DNA of 51,492 nucleotides, from contig JASKKI010000009.1 in NCBI GenBank assembly GCA_030154225.1, positions 1-51,492 on the forward strand, in the 5' to 3' direction. Position 1 is the stretch's first letter, and each line of letters starts with the position of its first letter. The notes under the pieces were generated by a model, which did not search any database, was not told the origin of the DNA, and saw only the letters and a program-made list of their open reading frames with translations. This DNA is from Clostridia bacterium (GTDB lineage: Bacteria; Bacillota; Peptococcia; Peptococcales; BICA1-8). Shown here piece after piece: positions 41,037 to 51,492 of the stretch. Position numbers and translations under genes: made by a program.

Positions 41037-42089
41037 CTATTTTATAATATTAGCTATCAGCTCTGCCATCTCTTTGGTTCCTACAACTTTCTTTCCTGGA
41101 CCAGCAATATCAATTGTGGCATAACCTTGGGCCAGTACTTGGTCTACGGCTACTTCAACAGCTTGGGCTGCTTCTTCATGCTGACAGGTAAAACGTAGCA
41201 TTAAGGCTACGGAAAGAATGGTAGCAATAGGGTTAGCTTTATTTTGTCCGGCAATGTCAGGGGCAGAACCGTGGGCCGGTTCATACAAATTAACCTTTCC
41301 ACCCAGGCTGGCCGATGGTAGCATTCCCAAAGAGCCGGCAATGCTGGCCGCCTGGTCGCTTAAAATGTCACCAAACATGTTTTCTGTCACTATTACATCA
41401 AACTGCCTAGGATTAATAACCAATTGTAGAGCTGCATTATCTACATAAAGGTGTTCCACCTTTACTTCGGGGTATTTCTGGTTTATTTCATTTACTACCT
41501 CCCGCCATAAGCGGGAAGTTTCTAAAACATTAGCTTTATCTATTGAATGAAGAATCTTCTTCCGCTTTTGAGCCAGCTCAAAACCTCGCTCTGCCAGTCT
41601 ATATACTTCTTCTCGGGAGTAACTGATAGTATCATAAGCCTCCTGTTCAGTTCTACCTTTAGTTCCGAAATAAGCTCCTCCTGTTAATTCCCTGAAAACT
41701 ACTACATCTACACCCTCTAAATAACCCGGTTTCCAAACAACTTTATTTTCCAAAGCATTATAGTATTTAACAGGTCTAAGGTTACAGTAGAGTCCCAGCC
41801 TTTTTCTCAATTCCAGAAGAGCAGATTCCGGCCTTAATCCTCTTTCCAGATTATCCCATTTAGGACCGCCTACCGCACCTAAGAGTACCGCATCACTTTC
41901 TTCAACTAACTTCTTGGTATCTGTAGGAAAAGGTGTACCTGTGGCATCATAGGCTGAACCACCAAAAAGTCCCTTTTGAAAACTGAAATCTATTTCAAAT
42001 ACTTCTTTTACCTTGTTGACAACGAGCATAGAGCTCTCTATTATTTCCGGTCCTATACCATCACCTGGCAGTACTGCTACTTTAACCAT
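41037..42089 (-). CDS. leuB: 3-isopropylmalate dehydrogenase
   Basis: VLPGDGIGPEIIESS, YEPAHGSAPDIAGQNKANPIA. Confidence 0.97.
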   Translation of the reverse strand: MVKVAVLPGDGIGPEIIESSMLVVNKVKEVFEIDFSFQKGLFGGSAYDATGTPFPTDTKKLVEESDAVLLGAVGGPKWDNLERGLRPESALLELRKRLGLYCNLRPVKYYNALENKVVWKPGYLEGVDVVVFRELTGGAYFGTKGRTEQEAYDTISYSREEVYRLAERGFELAQKRKKILHSIDKANVLETSRLWREVVNEINQKYPEVKVEHLYVDNAALQLVINPRQFDVIVTENMFGDILSDQAASIAGSLGMLPSASLGGKVNLYEPAHGSAPDIAGQNKANPIATILSVALMLRFTCQHEEAAQAVEVAVDQVLAQGYATIDIAGPGKKVVGTKEMAELIANIIK

Positions 42090-42585
42090 TAAATTTCACC
42101 CTATTCTTGACATAATTTAAGAGGTTTCCCGCTTTAATGATTTCCTGAATAAAAGGAGGAAAGGTTTCTGTTTCATATTCCTCACCGGTTTCCATATTAA
42201 AAATATAACCTTGATTAACATCTACTTCAATCCGGTCACCTGTTGAAATACCCCAAACCGCTTCTTCGGAAGTAATAATGGGTAACCCGATATTAATGGC
42301 ATTACGGTAAAAAATTCTGGCAAAGCTCTGGGCAACAACACAGCTTATACCAGCAGCTTTAATGGCTAAAGGTGCATGTTCCCGGGAACTACCACAACCA
42401 AAGTTTTTACCAGCTACTAATATATCCCCCTTTTGTATTTTTCCAATAAAATCTGGAATAACATCTTCTAAACAATGTTTTTTCAAATTTTCCTCACTGG
42501 CATCATTTAAATAGCGGGCAGCAATTATTAAATCTGTATCAATATCATCGCCAACTCGCCAAACTTTACCGATATACTTAGTCAT
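42082..42585 (-). CDS. leuD: 3-isopropylmalate dehydratase small subunit
   Basis: [38 protein letters not shown]. Confidence 0.96.
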
Positions 42586-43861
42586 TTTCCATTACCTCCT
42601 CAGGAGAACATATTTTTCCTTTAATGGCCGACGCTGCTGCTACTGCTGGATTGGAAAGATAAACTTCACTTTCTGGGTCTCCCATCCGTCCTACAAAATT
42701 GCGGTTTGTTGTGGCTAAAGCTTTCTCTCCTTTAGCCAGAATGCCCATGTAGCCTCCTAAGCAGGGGCCACAGGTAGGTGTACTGAAAACTCCTCCTGCT
42801 TCAATAATAATATCAACTATTCCTTCATTAATACATTGTTGGTAAATTGCCTGGGTACCTGGTATCACAATTAACCGTAAGTATGGATGGACCTTTTTTC
42901 CTTTAAGCACCTGGGCAGCAATCCGCATATCTTCCAATCTGCCGTTGGTACAAGAGCCAATTACAACCTGGTCAATAAGAACAGTTCCTACCTGGTCAAT
43001 ATTTCTAGTATTTGATGGTAGATGGGGAAAAGCCACTTGTGGTTTAAGTTGGCTTAAATCCATTTCAATCTCATTAGCATAATGGGCATCGGGATCACTG
43101 TGATAAAATACAAATGGTTTGTTGACCCTACCCTTTACATAATCCCTGGTTTTTTCATCAAAGGCCATAATACCGTTTTTAGCCCCGGCTTCAATTGCCA
43201 TATTAGCCATACTGAACCGACTATCCATGGATAAGTGTTCTAACCCTTCCCCGACAAATTCTAAAGCCTGGTACCGGGCACCATCCACTCCTATTTTACC
43301 GATTAGAGCTAAAATTACGTCTTTACCAACTACCCATGGTTGGGTAGGTTTACCCTTTAACACTACTTTTATTGTTTCGGGAACCCTTAACCAAACTTCC
43401 CCGGTGGCCATAGCCGCTGCCACATCTGTACTACCTACTCCGGTAGCAAAGGCCCCTAACGCTCCATAAGTACAGGTATGGGAGTCTGCCCCTATTACCA
43501 AATCACCTGGTGCTACAATGCCTAATTCAGGTAATAGACAGTGTTCAATCCCCATTTGTCCTACTTCATAATAGTGAGTAAGTTCCTGCTCCCGGGCAAA
43601 ATCCCGGATTGCTTTACACTGTTCAGCTGATTTTATGTCTTTGGCAGGGGAAAAGTGATCAGGAATCATTACGACTTTACTTTTATCAAAAACCTTTTTT
43701 GCACCCAGTTTATTAAATTCATTAATTGCTACCGGCCCCGTAATATCGTTACTTAAAACAACATCAACTTTAGCGTTGATTAACTCTCCTGAGCGAACTC
43801 TTTCTATTCCGGCATGGGCCGCCAAGATTTTTTCTGTAATTGTCATTCCCACTATAATCAC
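42578..43861 (-). CDS. leuC: 3-isopropylmalate dehydratase large subunit
   Basis: [51 protein letters not shown]; likely start [13 protein letters not shown]. Confidence 0.96.
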
Positions 43862-45396
43862 ATCCCTTCAACTTTTGCTTTTTCAATGATTTTTGTCATA
43901 TTTAAAGCTTTATTAATAGCATTTAAATAGGCTCTAGCACTGGATTCAATTACATCAACACTAATACCCCTACCTGTAAATGATTTCCCCTGGTATAACA
44001 CCTTAACAACCACTTCTCCCTGGGCGTCCCGACCTGAAGTAACAGAGTTTATAGCATAATTTTCTAAAATAAATTCTTGTTCTACAATATTATTAATGGC
44101 TGCATAGGTTGCCTCTACAGGACCTTTACCAATAGCCGCTTGTTCATGTAGTTGGCCGTTTACCAGCACTCCTACTGTAGCAGTAGAAACTATATTGGTC
44201 CCAGATGAGACGTGGATATAAGAAAATTGATAAGTTTCCGGACCTTTTAAAATTTCCGTATCAACTAAAGCAATTAAATCTTCATCCAAAACATTTTTCT
44301 TGCGGTCACATAGCTCCTTAAATCTTTTAAAGGCTTTGTCCAGTGCTTCACCATCCAGTTCATAACCTAGTCCTTTTAAATGAAGTTTAAAGGCATGCCG
44401 TCCAGAATGTTTTCCTAAGTACAGGTTGTTTCCAGGTACACCAATCATAGCCGGATTCATAATTTCATAAGTTTCCCGTTCTTTTATTACACCATCTTGG
44501 TGAATTCCAGATTCATGCACAAAGGCATTTTTACCTACTATAGCTTTATTAGGTTGAATTACCATACCGGTCAAAGTACTTACCATTTTACTGGTTCGAT
44601 AAATTTCTTCTTTATTTATCTTAGTATCTGCATTTAAATAATTACGGCGGGTATAAAGAGCCATAACCAATTCTTCTAAAGAGGCATTACCGGCCCGTTC
44701 ACCTATACCATTAATAGTAACTTCCACCTGAGTTGCCCCGTTTTTAATTGCTGCCAAAGAATTGGCCACAGCCAGGCCAAGGTCATTATGGCAGTGAACA
44801 CTGATTGCTGCCTGGTGAATATTAGGTACCCTTTCTTTAATGGCATAAATAAACTCACCAAACTCCCAGGGAGTTGCATAACCTACAGTGTCGGGGATAT
44901 TTACAGTTTTAGCACCGGCCTTAATTACCGCTTCAAATAGTTCACACAAAAAGCTTAATTCACTGCGAAATGCATCTTCTGCCGAAAATTCAACATCATC
45001 AGTATAGCTTTTAGCCAATTCTACTGCTCGAACGGCACTTTTTAGAACCTCATCAGGTGTTTTCTTTAATTTGTGTTTCATATGAATATTTGAAGTAGCA
45101 ATAAAAGTATGAATTCTTGGTTTCTGTGCATCTTTCAGGGCTTCCCACGCTCTTTTAATATCTGCCTCATCGGTTCGGGCCAATCCGGCAATTATCGGCC
45201 CTTCTACTGATTGGGCAACTGCCTTAACAGCTTCAAAATCACCGGTAGAAGCGATAGGAAATCCCGCTTCAATGCAGTCCACACCTAACTTAGCCAGTTG
45301 TTTAGCAACTGCAATTTTTTCCTTAACATTCAAACTCACCCCAGGAGATTGCTCTCCGTCTCGCAAAGTTGTATCAAAGATAAATATATTTTGCAT
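43858..45396 (-). CDS. leuA: 2-isopropylmalate synthase
   Basis: [40 protein letters not shown]-terminal regulatory domain. Confidence 0.96.
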
Positions 45397-45487: not shown

Positions 45488-45790
45488 TAAAAAACCTTTC
45501 ATCTCTTAAATAGAGACGAAAGGTTTAGCTTCCGCGGTACCACTCTAATTGATGCAAAAAATTACAATTTTGCATCCACTTTTTCGGGTACAATCATACC
45601 CTATCCCTGATTACGGTGGGCTTCCGGCCAAATCTACTTTTCATAAGAATTTCGGTTGGCAACTCCAGGGTGAGTTTCAGCTTTTATATTTACCGCCTTG
45701 CACCAACCGGCGGCTCTCTGCAAAATACTCCAGCTTACTGATCCCTATCACAGTTTTTAAACAATATTATCTCTTACTAATAATTATATA
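45488..45790 (-). promoter_or_regulatory. T-box leader, probable tRNA-Leu specificity, upstream of leuACDB
   Basis: Minus strand has T-box AGAGTGGTACCGCGG, terminator AAACCTTTCGTCTCT...AGAGATGAAAGGTTTTTT, stem I with GAAA-CUC-ACCCUGGAGUUGCC (candidate CUC specifier at 45672-45674). Confidence 0.95.
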
Positions 45791-45850: not shown

Positions 45851-47491
45851 TTAAACCATTTCTTCCAGGCCATTACCTGCTAAAACAATAGGATTGACCA
45901 GATCCCGGCTATTAATTGGACACTCCACTATAGTAAATTTTCTGTTGGCAAATGTTTCCTTGAAAACATCTGTGACATCTGCCTCTTTTTCTATCCGTAA
46001 TCCTTCTGCACCATAAGCTTTGGCTAACATCATGAAATCTAAAGTCTTTTTAAAATCAACAAATGAATAACGCTGTCCACAATAATAATGCTGCAACTGG
46101 CGAACCATACCCAAAGTATTATTATTAAAAATCACTATTTTTATGGGGAGTTCTAGTTCGGCAATAGTTCCCAGTTCCGGCATTCCCATCTGAAAACTGC
46201 CATCACCGGTAATAGCCACAACTGTACTTTCGGGCATTGCCAACTGAGCCCCTAGAGCTGCAGGGATGCCGTAACCCATCGTACCCAGGCCACCTGAAGA
46301 AATAAAGGTTCTGGGCTGGTTGAATATATAATGCTGAGCTGTCCACATTTGATGTTGACCAACATCGGTAGTAACTATAGTATTTGAGGGGGCAACCCTT
46401 TGCAGGTTACGTAAGACCCAGGGTGCATTTAAACCTTCGTTAATTTGAATGTTCCTATTGGGAAAATTAATAGTTTTTCGAACTTTATGATCTTTCTTAA
46501 GCAGTTTAATTATATCTTGTAATACATTTTTAAGGTCACCAACTATAGGTACATCTACAGGAATATTTTTACCAATTTCCGCTGGATCTATATCAATATG
46601 AATTATTTGAGCTTCGGGAGCAAATTTTTCTGGATTTCCTACAACCCGATCATCAAACCTCATCCCCAAAGCTAGAAAACAGTCACAACTTTGAACAGCC
46701 AGGTTGGCAGCTTTATTCCCATAAGTACCGAGCATTCCTTGAAAAGTTTGAGAATTACCCGGATATGCTCCCAACCCCATTAAGGTGGACACTACCTTAG
46801 CACCGGTTAGTTCTACAACCTCCTGTACTTCAGCAGAACATCCGGAATTAATTACTCCTCCACCGATACAAATAACTGGGCTACTAGCTTCCCCTAATAT
46901 TTTAACTGCTTTCTTGATCATGGTGGGGTGTCCTTTAAGAGTAGGTTTATAACTTCTTATGTCCACATTCCTATATGGATTATACTGACATTTAGCCATG
47001 GATACATCCCGGGGGATATCTATTAAAACAGGTCCCGGCCTTCCGCTTTTTGCAATGTAAAAAGCCTCAGCAATAATTTTGGGTAAATCCTGTACATTTT
47101 GTACTAAATAATTATTCTTGGTTATAGGTGAGGTTATTCCGGTAATATCTACCTCCTGAAAAGCATCAGTGCCCACCATTGCTTTGGCAACCTGACCGGT
47201 AATAAATACGAGAGGCACAGAATCCATATAAGCTGTAGCAATTCCCGTAACCAAATTAGTAGCACCAGGTCCGGAAGTAGCAACACATACCCCCACTTTT
47301 CCCAAAGCCCGGGCATAACCGCTGGCTGCATGGGCACCACCCTGTTCATGTCTTACTAAAATTTGCCTTATTGAACTTTCCCGTAGAGCATCAAAAATTT
47401 CTAATACTGCTCCCCCGGGGTAGCCAAATATAGTATCAACACCTTGCTCTTCTAAAGCCTTTACTAAGATCTGTGCCCCATTTAATTCCAT
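45851..47491 (-). CDS. ilvB: Acetolactate synthase large subunit, second paralog in operon
   Basis: ILVKALEEQGVDTIFGYPGGAVLEIFDAL, TDVGQHQMWTAQHY, GDGSFQMGMPEL. Confidence 0.95.
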   Translation of the reverse strand: MELNGAQILVKALEEQGVDTIFGYPGGAVLEIFDALRESSIRQILVRHEQGGAHAASGYARALGKVGVCVATSGPGATNLVTGIATAYMDSVPLVFITGQVAKAMVGTDAFQEVDITGITSPITKNNYLVQNVQDLPKIIAEAFYIAKSGRPGPVLIDIPRDVSMAKCQYNPYRNVDIRSYKPTLKGHPTMIKKAVKILGEASSPVICIGGGVINSGCSAEVQEVVELTGAKVVSTLMGLGAYPGNSQTFQGMLGTYGNKAANLAVQSCDCFLALGMRFDDRVVGNPEKFAPEAQIIHIDIDPAEIGKNIPVDVPIVGDLKNVLQDIIKLLKKDHKVRKTINFPNRNIQINEGLNAPWVLRNLQRVAPSNTIVTTDVGQHQMWTAQHYIFNQPRTFISSGGLGTMGYGIPAALGAQLAMPESTVVAITGDGSFQMGMPELGTIAELELPIKIVIFNNNTLGMVRQLQHYYCGQRYSFVDFKKTLDFMMLAKAYGAEGLRIEKEADVTDVFKETFANRKFTIVECPINSRDLVNPIVLAGNGLEEMV

Positions 47492-47503: not shown

Positions 47504-48496
47504 TTATTTCTTCAACCAGGGCATATGTGCCCGTAATTCCTTGCCAACTTTCTCGATCAAATGATTTTCGTCCCTTCTCTTTAAGGCATTATATCTAGGA
47601 CGTCCTACCTGGTTCTCCAGTAACCATTCTTTAGCAAACTGTCCATTTTGAACTTCCTCTAACATCTTCTTCATTTCTTTTCGCACATCTTCATTAATAA
47701 CTCTGCGACCGGATATCAGGTCTCCAAATTCGGCGGTATCACTAATGGAATGCCTCATCCAAGTGATTCCACCTTCATACATCAAGTCTACTATTAGCTT
47801 CAGTTCATTAAGACACTCAAAATAGGCAATTTCCGGCTGATATCCGGCTTCTACCAAGGTATCAAAACCTGCTCTAACTAATTCGGTTACTCCTCCACAA
47901 AGTACAGCCTGTTCTCCAAAAAGATCAGTTTCTGTTTCCTCTTGGAATGTAGTTTCCAGTACTCCTGCTCTAGTACAGCCAATAGCTTTGGCATATGCTA
48001 AAGCTTTATCCCAGCACTGACCAGTAGCATCCTGGTAAACTGCTGCCAATCCGGGTACACCTTTTCCTTCTACATAAAGCCTGCGTAACAAATGTCCCGG
48101 AGTCTTAGGAGCAATCATAAATACATCAATATCTGCTGGTGGAACTATTAATCCATAGTGAATGCTAAAACCGTGGGAAACTACTAAAGTTTTACCTGCT
48201 TTTAGATTTGGCTTGATATATTTTTCATAAACATTTTGATGATGTTCATCTGGTAACAGAATTTGAAAAACATCAGCCTGCTCACAAGCTTCTTCTATAG
48301 TTAGGGCCTTTAAACCATCTGCTTCTACCTGGGCAAATGATTTACTACCCTGTCTAAGACCTACAATAACATCTAAACCACTATCCTGTAAATTTTGAGC
48401 CTGGGCATGACCCTGACTACCATAACCGATAACTGCAATCTTTTTGCCTTTCAGAACTTCTAAATTTGCATCTTTGTCATAATACATCTTTGCCAT
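47504..48496 (-). CDS. ilvC: Ketol-acid reductoisomerase
   Basis: [45 protein letters not shown]. Confidence 0.98.
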
Positions 48497-48588: not shown

Positions 48589-49068
48589 TCATTTGGCTCC
48601 CCTAACCATGGAAATAGTACCTGTTTTAACTATCTCCAAAATACCAAAAGGCTGTAGGGATTTAATTATTGCATCTATTTTCTCTTCACTACCAGTGGCT
48701 TCCACAATGAGGGACTTTTTACCTATGTCAATAATCCTAGCTCGAAAGATATCCATTAATTGAGCAATTTCACCTTTAGCAGAATTATCTGCATTTACCT
48801 TAACCAAAAGTAATTGTCGATCTACAGTTTCATCATGGGTTACATCACTTACTTTAATAACATCAATTAATTTATTAAGTTGTTTAGTTACTTGTTCAAT
48901 TATTTTTTCGTCTCCATCCACTACTATAGTCATCCGGGAAACAGAACTATCTTCTGTTTCACTAACAACCAGGCTGCTAATATTATAGCCCCTTCTCGAG
49001 AAAAGACCTGAAACTCTGGAAAGAACACCGGGATGGTTTTCAACCAAGACTGCTAACGTGTGCTTCAT
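48589..49068 (-). CDS. ilvN: Acetolactate synthase small subunit
   Basis: HTLAVLVENHPGVLSRVSGLFSRRGYNISSLVV. Confidence 0.97.
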   Translation of the reverse strand: MKHTLAVLVENHPGVLSRVSGLFSRRGYNISSLVVSETEDSSVSRMTIVVDGDEKIIEQVTKQLNKLIDVIKVSDVTHDETVDRQLLLVKVNADNSAKGEIAQLMDIFRARIIDIGKKSLIVEATGSEEKIDAIIKSLQPFGILEIVKTGTISMVRGAK

Positions 49069-50734
49069 TTTTCCAACTCCCCCATATTTGGTCTAAACTA
49101 CATCCCGCTGGTACCATAGGAAATACATTAGCACCAGGGTCAACTTTAATATCCATTAACCAAGGTTCCCTAGAGGATATGGCTGTATTTAAACTTTCCT
49201 TGCACTCATAGGGAGTCCTAAGGGTCTTACCCTTAATACCATAAGCTTGAGCTAGTTTTTCCCAATCGGGCCCAGCTTCCAAACTGGTCTCTGCGTAATT
49301 CTCATTAAAGAATAGCTCTTGCCACTGGCGTACCATTCCTAAATAACCGTTATTTATTAAAAAAATCTTTATAGGTAAATTCCACTGTTTTATTAAGGCC
49401 AGTTCCTGGATATTCATTTGTAAGCTACCATCCCCGGTGATAAGTACAACTTTTTTTTCTGGGTTGGCCATTTGCACCCCAATTGCTGCCGGTAAGCCAA
49501 AACCCATTGTCCCCAATCCACCTGAGGTAATAAAACCTCTGGGGTAATGAGGATGAACAAATAACGCAGCCCACATTTGATGCTGGCCAACATCTGTAAC
49601 AACAATCGTTTTTTCATCCACAAGACTATTTATGGTTGCCATTACCTCCTGGGGATCCAGGTGGCTATGGGAAACTTTTTGAATTGATTTATTAAGCTCA
49701 ATTTGTTTGAGCCAGTCCTTATTTATTTTGATTCCCCTTAATTTTTGACTTAACATTTTCAGAAAATCATAACTATCAGCACAAATTGGCACATCAACAG
49801 CACAGTTTTTACCTATTTCGGCAGCATCAATATCAACATGAATTTTTTTAGCTTTAGAAGCAAATTCTTCTAATTTACCTGTTACTCTATCGTCAAAACG
49901 AATACCGATTGCTAACAAACAATCACAATTTTGGATTGCCCAATTAGCTTCTGTAGTTCCATGCATTCCTACCATACCTAAGAACAAGGGATTATCGGCC
50001 GGGAATACACCTTTACCCATCAGTGTTACAGCAACAGGTATTTCATTATTCATTGCAACCTGTCTTAAAAATTCATAACTGCCCTCTGCCTGGGTAACTC
50101 CACCCCCTGCTAAAATCAAAGGTCGTTTAGAATGCTTTAACAATTCTAGAGCTTTACCCAACTGAATTTCATTGAGTACAGGTTTCTCGAGTTTGGTTAT
50201 GATATGTTTACGTATTTTAGGTTCTCTAATTTCTGAAACTTCCTGGGTAAAAACATCTTTAGGAATATCAATTAAAACAGGTCCAGGTCTGCCATGGGTA
50301 GCAATATAAAAAGCTTCAGCTACAATATCAGGAATTTCATTAGCATCCCTAACTAAGTAGTTATGCTTAGTAACAGGTTGACTTAAACCTACAGTATCTG
50401 CCTCCTGAAAGCTATCTTTACCTAAAAAGGCCTTTGCAACCTGGCCGGTTATAGCTACTACCGGTGAGGAATCCATATAGGCCGTAGCAAGCCCGGTCAA
50501 CAAATTAGTAGCACCAGGTCCAGAAGTTGCAAAACATACTCCTACCTTTCCAGTAGATCTTGCATATCCATCGGCAGCATGGGCTGCTCCTTGTTCATGG
50601 CGGGTAAGAATGTGTTTGATATTGCTTTTTTTAAGTACATCATATAGAGGGATCACAACTCCGCCAGGTATACCAAAAACAAGTTTCACTTGCTTTTCTT
50701 CTAAACATTTTAATAAGAGCTCAGAACCTAACAT
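49040..50734 (-). CDS. ilvB: Acetolactate synthase large subunit, first paralog
   Basis: LLLKCLEEKQVKLVFGIPGGVVIPLYDVL, TDVGQHQMWAALF, GDGSLQMNIQELA. Confidence 0.96.
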   Translation of the reverse strand: MLGSELLLKCLEEKQVKLVFGIPGGVVIPLYDVLKKSNIKHILTRHEQGAAHAADGYARSTGKVGVCFATSGPGATNLLTGLATAYMDSSPVVAITGQVAKAFLGKDSFQEADTVGLSQPVTKHNYLVRDANEIPDIVAEAFYIATHGRPGPVLIDIPKDVFTQEVSEIREPKIRKHIITKLEKPVLNEIQLGKALELLKHSKRPLILAGGGVTQAEGSYEFLRQVAMNNEIPVAVTLMGKGVFPADNPLFLGMVGMHGTTEANWAIQNCDCLLAIGIRFDDRVTGKLEEFASKAKKIHVDIDAAEIGKNCAVDVPICADSYDFLKMLSQKLRGIKINKDWLKQIELNKSIQKVSHSHLDPQEVMATINSLVDEKTIVVTDVGQHQMWAALFVHPHYPRGFITSGGLGTMGFGLPAAIGVQMANPEKKVVLITGDGSLQMNIQELALIKQWNLPIKIFLINNGYLGMVRQWQELFFNENYAETSLEAGPDWEKLAQAYGIKGKTLRTPYECKESLNTAISSREPWLMDIKVDPGANVFPMVPAGCSLDQIWGSWKNEAHVSSLG

Positions 50735-50911
50735 AAAGCACCTCCAAAATTTTGCTTTTAGAATGTTAGAATAACTGGCTCTACAATGCTACCCAGAAAT
50801 TGGTATCCCACTACCTGATTTCTGGGAGCTATCACCCCCACTAAGGGGTGGGACTTTTCTGTAGCACCCACACCTATCACCCCATTATTTAGTTCGTTAA
50901 ATGCTAATATC

Positions 50912-50960
50912 AAAACCCGACGCAAGTTTCCCAATTTTCTTTGGAACTTGCCGCCGGGTC
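50912..50960 (-). terminator. Intrinsic terminator/attenuator abutting the ykkC-family aptamer
   Basis: Minus strand: GACCCGGCGGCAAGTTCCaaagaaaattGGGAAACTTGCGTCGGGTTTTG. Confidence 0.85.
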
Positions 50961-51057
50961 TTTTATTCCCACGGTGTACCAGAAGCCAGTAACCATAGTC
51001 ACTGAAGGCTGAGGTTCTGGTTGTACCGCTCGGTCACAGACCTACAAGGGTTTAGAA
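50953..51057 (-). ncRNA. ykkC-family riboswitch aptamer, probably subtype 2a (ppGpp)
   Basis: Minus strand: CTAAACCCTTGTAGGTCTGTGACCGAGCGGTACAACCAGAACCTCAGCC...GGCTTCTGGTACACCGTGGGAATAAAAGACCCGG; matches the ykkC conserved GGUCxGxGACCGAG and ACACxGxGGGAxAAAAGxCCCGG blocks; upstream of ilvB. Confidence 0.78.
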
Positions 51058-51334
51058 AAGATGTTAATAAAAATTGATTTGAATGTTTTATAACTTCAAG
51101 TAGCGGAACCCTAGGTACACTTCCATTATTTTATATAACAGTTTATATGTAATTTTTTTATTATGCAACAGGTTTGGATTAAGTATACAAAATTCATTTC
51201 TTTTAGTCAATACGTAAATTCAATTTTCTTGGTAAATATTTTGTAAATTGTTGTTATATAATTAAAAAATCAAAAAAAAATTTATTAATTAAGCAGGAAT
51301 TTCATTTACCATAAAGAATATAAATCTATAGAAG

Positions 51335-51345
51335 TGGTCATACCA
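51335..51345. promoter_or_regulatory. Candidate GntR/FadR-family operator
   Basis: TGGTCATACCA palindrome (core of GTGGTCATACCAC) upstream of partial SAF-domain gene. Confidence 0.45.
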
Positions 51346-51377
51346 CCGACCTCTTACCTGAGCTTAAGAGGTTGGTG
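51344..51377 (+). other. Stable hairpin in leader of the partial 3' gene
   Basis: CACCGACCTCTTA...TAAGAGGTTGGTG, 13-bp stem with one G-T wobble position, just upstream of aaggagg. Confidence 0.6.
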
Positions 51378-51409: not shown

Positions 51410-51492
51410 ATGGCAGTAAGAGTTGCCTATGTCGTTGATGAGGTAAAAGATAATGTGGCAACAATCCTCTCCAATGACATCAAAAAAGGGAT
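51410..51492 (+). CDS. Partial CDS, SAF-domain / UxaA-like N-terminus
   Basis: ATG after aaggagg; MAVRVAYVVDEVKDNVATILSNDIKKG; truncated by window edge. Confidence 0.6.
   Translation, partial: MAVRVAYVVDEVKDNVATILSNDIKKG

Follow-up and report, generated by a model that had tools for sequence, protein, structure and literature searches.

The window, by which we mean the whole 51,492-nt stretch of DNA that was analysed, carries a ykkC-family aptamer of 186 nt on its minus strand (51125-50940), placed before ilvB at the head of a branched-chain amino acid (BCAA) operon. We consider it likely that this aptamer belongs to a singlet ppGpp riboswitch (subtype 2a), which switches on transcription of ilvB-ilvN-ilvC-ilvB2 and, jointly with a downstream leucine T-box, of leuACDB. 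This reading is the best one for the element, the ON direction, the response to ppGpp and the use in vivo being what we infer. As ppGpp riboswitches are an established feature of BCAA operons, the element itself is ordinary, and it stands in its usual genomic setting. The positions of all features are collected in Table 1.

Table 1. Features of the ilv-leu leader and operon in the window.
Feature	Position	Strand	Evidence
Sigma-70-type promoter TTGACT-17-TATACT	51182..51210	-	consensus scan, 10/12 matches (5 sites found, 3.1 expected by chance)
ykkC subtype-2 aptamer, probable ppGpp (2a) type	50940..51125	-	RF00442 39.3, R3 74.7, R2 63.0 bits
P0 5′ strand	51124-51121	-	by eye from alignments
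P1	51119-51114 with 51027-51022	-	by eye from alignments
C49-equivalent	51028	-	by eye from alignments
C75-equivalent	50976	-	by eye from alignments
P3	GGG 50970-50968 with CCC 50958-50956	-	by eye from alignments
G96-equivalent	50955	-	by eye from alignments
P0 3′ strand	50946-50943	-	by eye from alignments
Intrinsic terminator, AAGACCCGGCGGCAAGUUCC...GGGAAACUUGCGUCGGGUUUU	50962-50912	-	fold -26.4 kcal/mol, then U tract
Conserved segment between terminator and ilvB	50735..50886	-	70-84% identity in four other family genomes
ilvB, acetolactate synthase large subunit	49040..50734	-	TIGR00118, 743 bits
ilvN, acetolactate synthase small subunit	48589..49068	-	TIGR00119, 220 bits
ilvC, ketol-acid reductoisomerase	47504..48496	-	TIGR00465, 466 bits
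Second ilvB (ilvB2)	45851..47491	-	TIGR00118, 737 bits
T-box leader before leuA	45509..45760	-	RF00230, 139.4 bits
leuA, leuC, leuD, leuB	41037..45396	-	NCBIfam matches

An earlier note on this DNA had placed a ykkC-family element at 50912-51057. That interval holds the 3′ part of the aptamer but leaves out the 5′ part (51058-51125), which carries GGAAGTGTACCTAGGGTTCCG, a stretch with the conserved CUAGGGUUCC and with the 5′ strand of each of the helices P0 and P1; GGAAGUGUACCUAGGGUUCCG, on the 5′ strand of the aptamer, likewise lies outside it. Both strings quoted in the note are present on the minus strand, and the proposed family membership was borne out. In a cmscan of 1.5 kb, RF00442 (Guanidine-I/ykkC) was the single family matched in the leader, with 39.3 bits (E = 3.6e-5), which is significant but below the gathering score of 63 bits. 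Custom subtype-2 models found the aptamer with E values of about 1e-14 to 1e-15 over 86 kb, and on the strength of these E values a chance match can be dismissed.

Taken at its Rfam label, the sole Rfam match of the leader would make the element a guanidine-I riboswitch, a reading to which we give almost no credence. Guanidine-I aptamers are marked by an A at position 49, and subtypes 2a and 2b by a pyrimidine (PMC6031431; PMC5912903). The corresponding base (C49 of the T. mathranii aptamer) is a C in the window, whereas each of the eight guanidine-I loci that we collected has an A or a G. The element is therefore assigned to subtype 2 and not to subtype 1, which is the answer that the note's subtype check against guanidine-I had anticipated. 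In addition to the marker base, the score stays under the cut-off (39.3 versus 63 bits), and on these two grounds the guanidine-I identity was rejected. Also against it are the conserved P0 ends, which guanidine-I aptamers lack and which are present here as GGAA pairing with UUCC, as subtype 2 has them, and the BCAA genes downstream.

To separate the ppGpp (2a) from the PRPP (2b) type, ykkC hits were gathered from related genomes and labelled by their downstream gene (from the protein sequence, by eye). ilvD, ilvE, ilvB, liv, gltB-like, natA-like and peptide-transport genes counted as BCAA-type, and purine genes and NCS2-type permeases as purine-type. A column classifier that made one error in 72 leave-one-out assignments put the window in the BCAA group, and did so again when the sister sequence L036 was removed (-43.8 versus -57.0 log units). 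Two structure-matched covariance models of 29 pairs each, R3 (BCAA-type) and R2 (purine-type), both built with the window excluded, scored the window at 74.7 and 63.0 bits, respectively. Nine out of nine held-out controls fell on the expected side: the four BCAA-context loci (R3/R2: L226 93.6/84.9; L237 92.0/63.2; L241 90.7/70.2; L240 73.2/56.0) and the five purine-context loci (L001 69.6/97.1; L189 64.2/87.6; L205 61.1/83.3; L210 59.4/84.8; L217 54.6/79.2). The margin of 11.7 bits in the window lies towards the bottom of the range spanned by the positive controls (8.7 to 28.8), and R3 was made with the same helices as R2 after the result of a first BCAA/ppGpp model, R1, was known, which is a weakness of the comparison. 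R1, with an automatic structure of 14 pairs, had scored the window at 54.6 bits, under the 63.0 of R2; it was replaced because 14 and 29 pairs are not comparable and because P2, the site of the long insert in the window, was not modelled. L157, L162 and L174, in which the aligner misplaced a one-base bulge, were among the sequences left out of R3, and the scores of L036 are uninformative, as the models split it at its very long P2 insert. In both sequence and structure, the aptamer as a whole is nearer to BCAA-context aptamers than to purine-context ones, and the note's view that its nearest relatives are of the 2a type was upheld by both the models and the classifier.

Compared feature by feature with the ppGpp riboswitch (Sherlock, Sudarsan and Breaker 2018; consensus taken through PMC5912903 and PMC6031431), the window agrees in the core sequence, the P0 extension, the C at position 49, a terminator that shares the 3′ strand and the BCAA genes downstream. 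It differs in having a G at the discriminator base, in a one-base bulge, and in its P1 and P2 loops, whose long inserts bring it to 186 nt as against about 110. With the PRPP riboswitch (PMC5912903) it has in common the fold and, in a gapless alignment, the G at the G96 position; unlike that riboswitch, it has GUG and not a GAA-type sequence after CACC, GACCC and not GCCC, and a P0 that ends in GGAA/UUCC, and it scores lower on the corresponding model.

The gene context was followed with the 3′ signature CACCGTRRGDANARAAGAYYC-N1-3-GCGG. Of the 399 genomes of the phylum, 31 contain it, while the same signature read backwards gave no match among the genomes listed in the same search. That 2a RNAs lie upstream of BCAA genes, as the note had stated, is known from the literature (PMC5912903; PMC7266159). 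In our set, 26 of the 30 fetched signature loci, the window included, precede ilvE, liv, ilvB, leuA-like, natA-like or peptide-transport genes. The first gene was ilvE-like in 13 loci, a liv-type binding protein in six and ilvB in three; the leuA-like, natA-like and peptide-transport classes accounted for one to two loci each, and four loci (L221, L222, L231 and L247) start with another frame. Separately, a ykkC-type aptamer with a terminator was seen directly before a NUDIX hydrolase gene in another genome of the comparison (L199; G004:C144:26321-26427, minus strand). NUDIX hydrolase genes are a known context of subtype 2c ((d)NDP) riboswitches.

PRPP and ppGpp aptamers are discriminated by G96 of the T. 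mathranii aptamer (PMC6031431; PMC5912903), which in ppGpp aptamers is replaced by A, C, U or nothing (PMC6031431). The region around this position is hard to align and some ppGpp aptamers lack the nucleotide altogether (PMC6031431), and a filter that accepts only ppGpp aptamers without this G may drop some true ones (PMC10687018). When aligned without gaps, the equivalent base at 50955 is a G in the window; when P3 (GGG/CCC) is shifted by one, a single bulged G remains (GACCC-G-GCGG). From the alignment, the bulged G can thus be read either as G96 being present or as A96 being deleted with G95 kept and P3 in register. Among the 32 signature matches, the base before the invariant GCGG is A in 29, U in one and G in two, namely the window and L241 of genome G396, an ilvB leader from an unrelated family that reads AGGCGG; outside the window, 30 of the 31 comparable matches have A or U. 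A G at this place was also found in the sister genus (L036 of G005, which the signature pattern does not catch), by eye in L028, L150 and L154, and in all labelled purine-context aptamers. Of the subtype positions that the note wanted checked, position 49 fits subtype 2, and 50955, by the G96 rule alone, would indicate PRPP. Because 50955 is ambiguous, the ligand, which is probably ppGpp, was assigned from overall similarity and gene context and not from this base.

The same G gives weight to a different reading, in which a PRPP riboswitch, or an aptamer that answers both PRPP and ppGpp, stands before a BCAA operon. G96 would then form the cis pair with C75 that PRPP aptamers have, and exclude the ppGpp base. 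In its favour, the 3′ string CCCGGCGG is also present in several purC-linked aptamers (L152, L167, L195 and L196), and the single change G96A swaps specificity about 40,000-fold (PMC6031431). We nevertheless regard it as unlikely: apart from this base the aptamer is closer to the BCAA group, the NCBIfam matches place no purine synthesis or transport gene downstream in the operon, and the G also occurs in other aptamers linked to BCAA or peptide genes (L241 before ilvB; L150; L154). Moreover, the genome of the window contains a second ykkC aptamer, which is of the PRPP type (L001:1501-1639 on contig C79 of G000; R2 97.1 bits) and precedes a gene for an NCS2-type purine permease. It is doubtful, though conceivable, that a 2a-like aptamer with this G answers PRPP, or PRPP and ppGpp, in which case the BCAA operon would be wired to PRPP or the aptamer would stand, as a natural intermediate, between the two specificities. 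With its PRPP-diagnostic G, this BCAA-linked aptamer of the 2a type offers a natural test of single-base specificity.

Returning to the ppGpp riboswitch, its switching would rely on the terminator downstream of the aptamer. The 5′ arm of this terminator includes the 3′ strands of P3 and P0, which confirms the strand sharing described in the note, and the same aptamer/terminator overlap is known from the Cba ppGpp riboswitch (PMC10687018). When the whole 223-nt leader was folded, the terminator formed and P0 did not; this predicted structure is what an ON switch would adopt in its ligand-free, off state. In the free RNA, the aptamer 3′ strand GACCCGGCGGCAAGUUCC would pair with the downstream GGGAAACUUGCGUCGGGUUUU to build the terminator. 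Binding of ppGpp would stabilise P0 and P3 and so block the terminator, and upon amino-acid starvation the polymerase would read through into ilvB, the ligand-ON direction that the note had proposed.

An R3 search of the six genomes of the family located the aptamer before ilvB only in the genome of the window (G000) and in G005, which amounts to two of the five ilvB leaders of the family. In G001, G003 and G004 the promoter and the segment next to ilvB are kept, and the aptamer and terminator are missing. G005 (L036), with a ppGpp-type aptamer and terminator, and G003 (L037), without both, belong to the same genus and have kept flanks, which places the gain or loss of the switch inside that genus. 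Such switches thus come or go inside a genus while the promoter and the downstream leader persist. The absence from three genomes is also what one might see if the aptamer had decayed into a poor binder of any ligand, leaving mainly a constitutive attenuator, and the P2 insert of about 190 nt in the sister aptamer would suit such a decay. We hold this to be very improbable, as the core (CUAGGGUUCC, CACC, AUAAAAG, GCGG and P0) is intact in both carriers and the G005 terminator, despite a different sequence, makes the same use of the P0 side of the aptamer. The insert in L036 (contig C81 of G005) consists of short repeats (AAGGTTAAGG, TTTCGCTTCGC and similar).

The gene order ilvB-ilvN-ilvC-ilvB2-leu given in the note agrees with the NCBIfam matches, which give leuA-leuC-leuD-leuB for the leu part and place all genes on the minus strand, and the TTGAC-17-TATACT motif of the promoter is kept in the same place in G001, G003, G004 and G005. 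Control of the entire ilv-leu operon by the riboswitch, as the note had it, is in keeping with the placement before ilvB, but the leu half also has its own T-box, and the riboswitch is therefore not the sole control of the leu genes. This T-box is the sole Rfam match at gathering level in the whole window; its specifier is CUC (Leu) at 45674-45672, where the alignment shows UGAAACUCACCCUGGAG (by eye). As in the tandem T-box(Leu)/ppGpp arrangement (PMC9481103), both elements serve one ilv-leu gene set. Unlike that tandem, the two elements of the window do not share one leader: the ppGpp-type element is upstream of ilvB, and about 5.2 kb separate it from the T-box upstream of leuA, so that only the leu genes are exposed to both. 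The operon contains two complete genes for the acetolactate synthase large subunit (45851-47491 and 49040-50734) and one for the small subunit.

The conserved segment between terminator and ilvB (50886-50735) is separate from the riboswitch proper, and better conserved and commoner in the family than the riboswitch. It contains an SD-like GGGGTGATAG, hairpins at 50850-50833 and 50826-50792, the ilvB ribosome-binding site and a 37-codon frame with a GTG start (50871-50758). A frame of 37-47 codons is open in all five genomes and ends 16-23 nt ahead of the ilvB start; a 10-codon leader peptide (MWVLQKSPTP) in another frame was dropped for this reason. The segment had no match in Rfam, Pfam or NCBIfam, and a protein profile of the frame found nothing convincing outside the family. 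Over the five sequences, codon statistics gave no third-position excess for the differences in the frame, and covariation in the hairpins was not clearly above shuffles. The segment may encode a leader peptide, constitute a small gene or be a structured RNA.

On the other side of the leader, before a divergent plus-strand frame that starts at 51410, positions 51334-51377 (plus strand) hold AGTGGTCATACCACC, a TGGT-N3-ACCA palindrome, and a terminator-like 13-bp hairpin lies at 51344-51377. The palindrome, which resembles operators of the FadR/GntR family, is kept in G003, G004 and G005.
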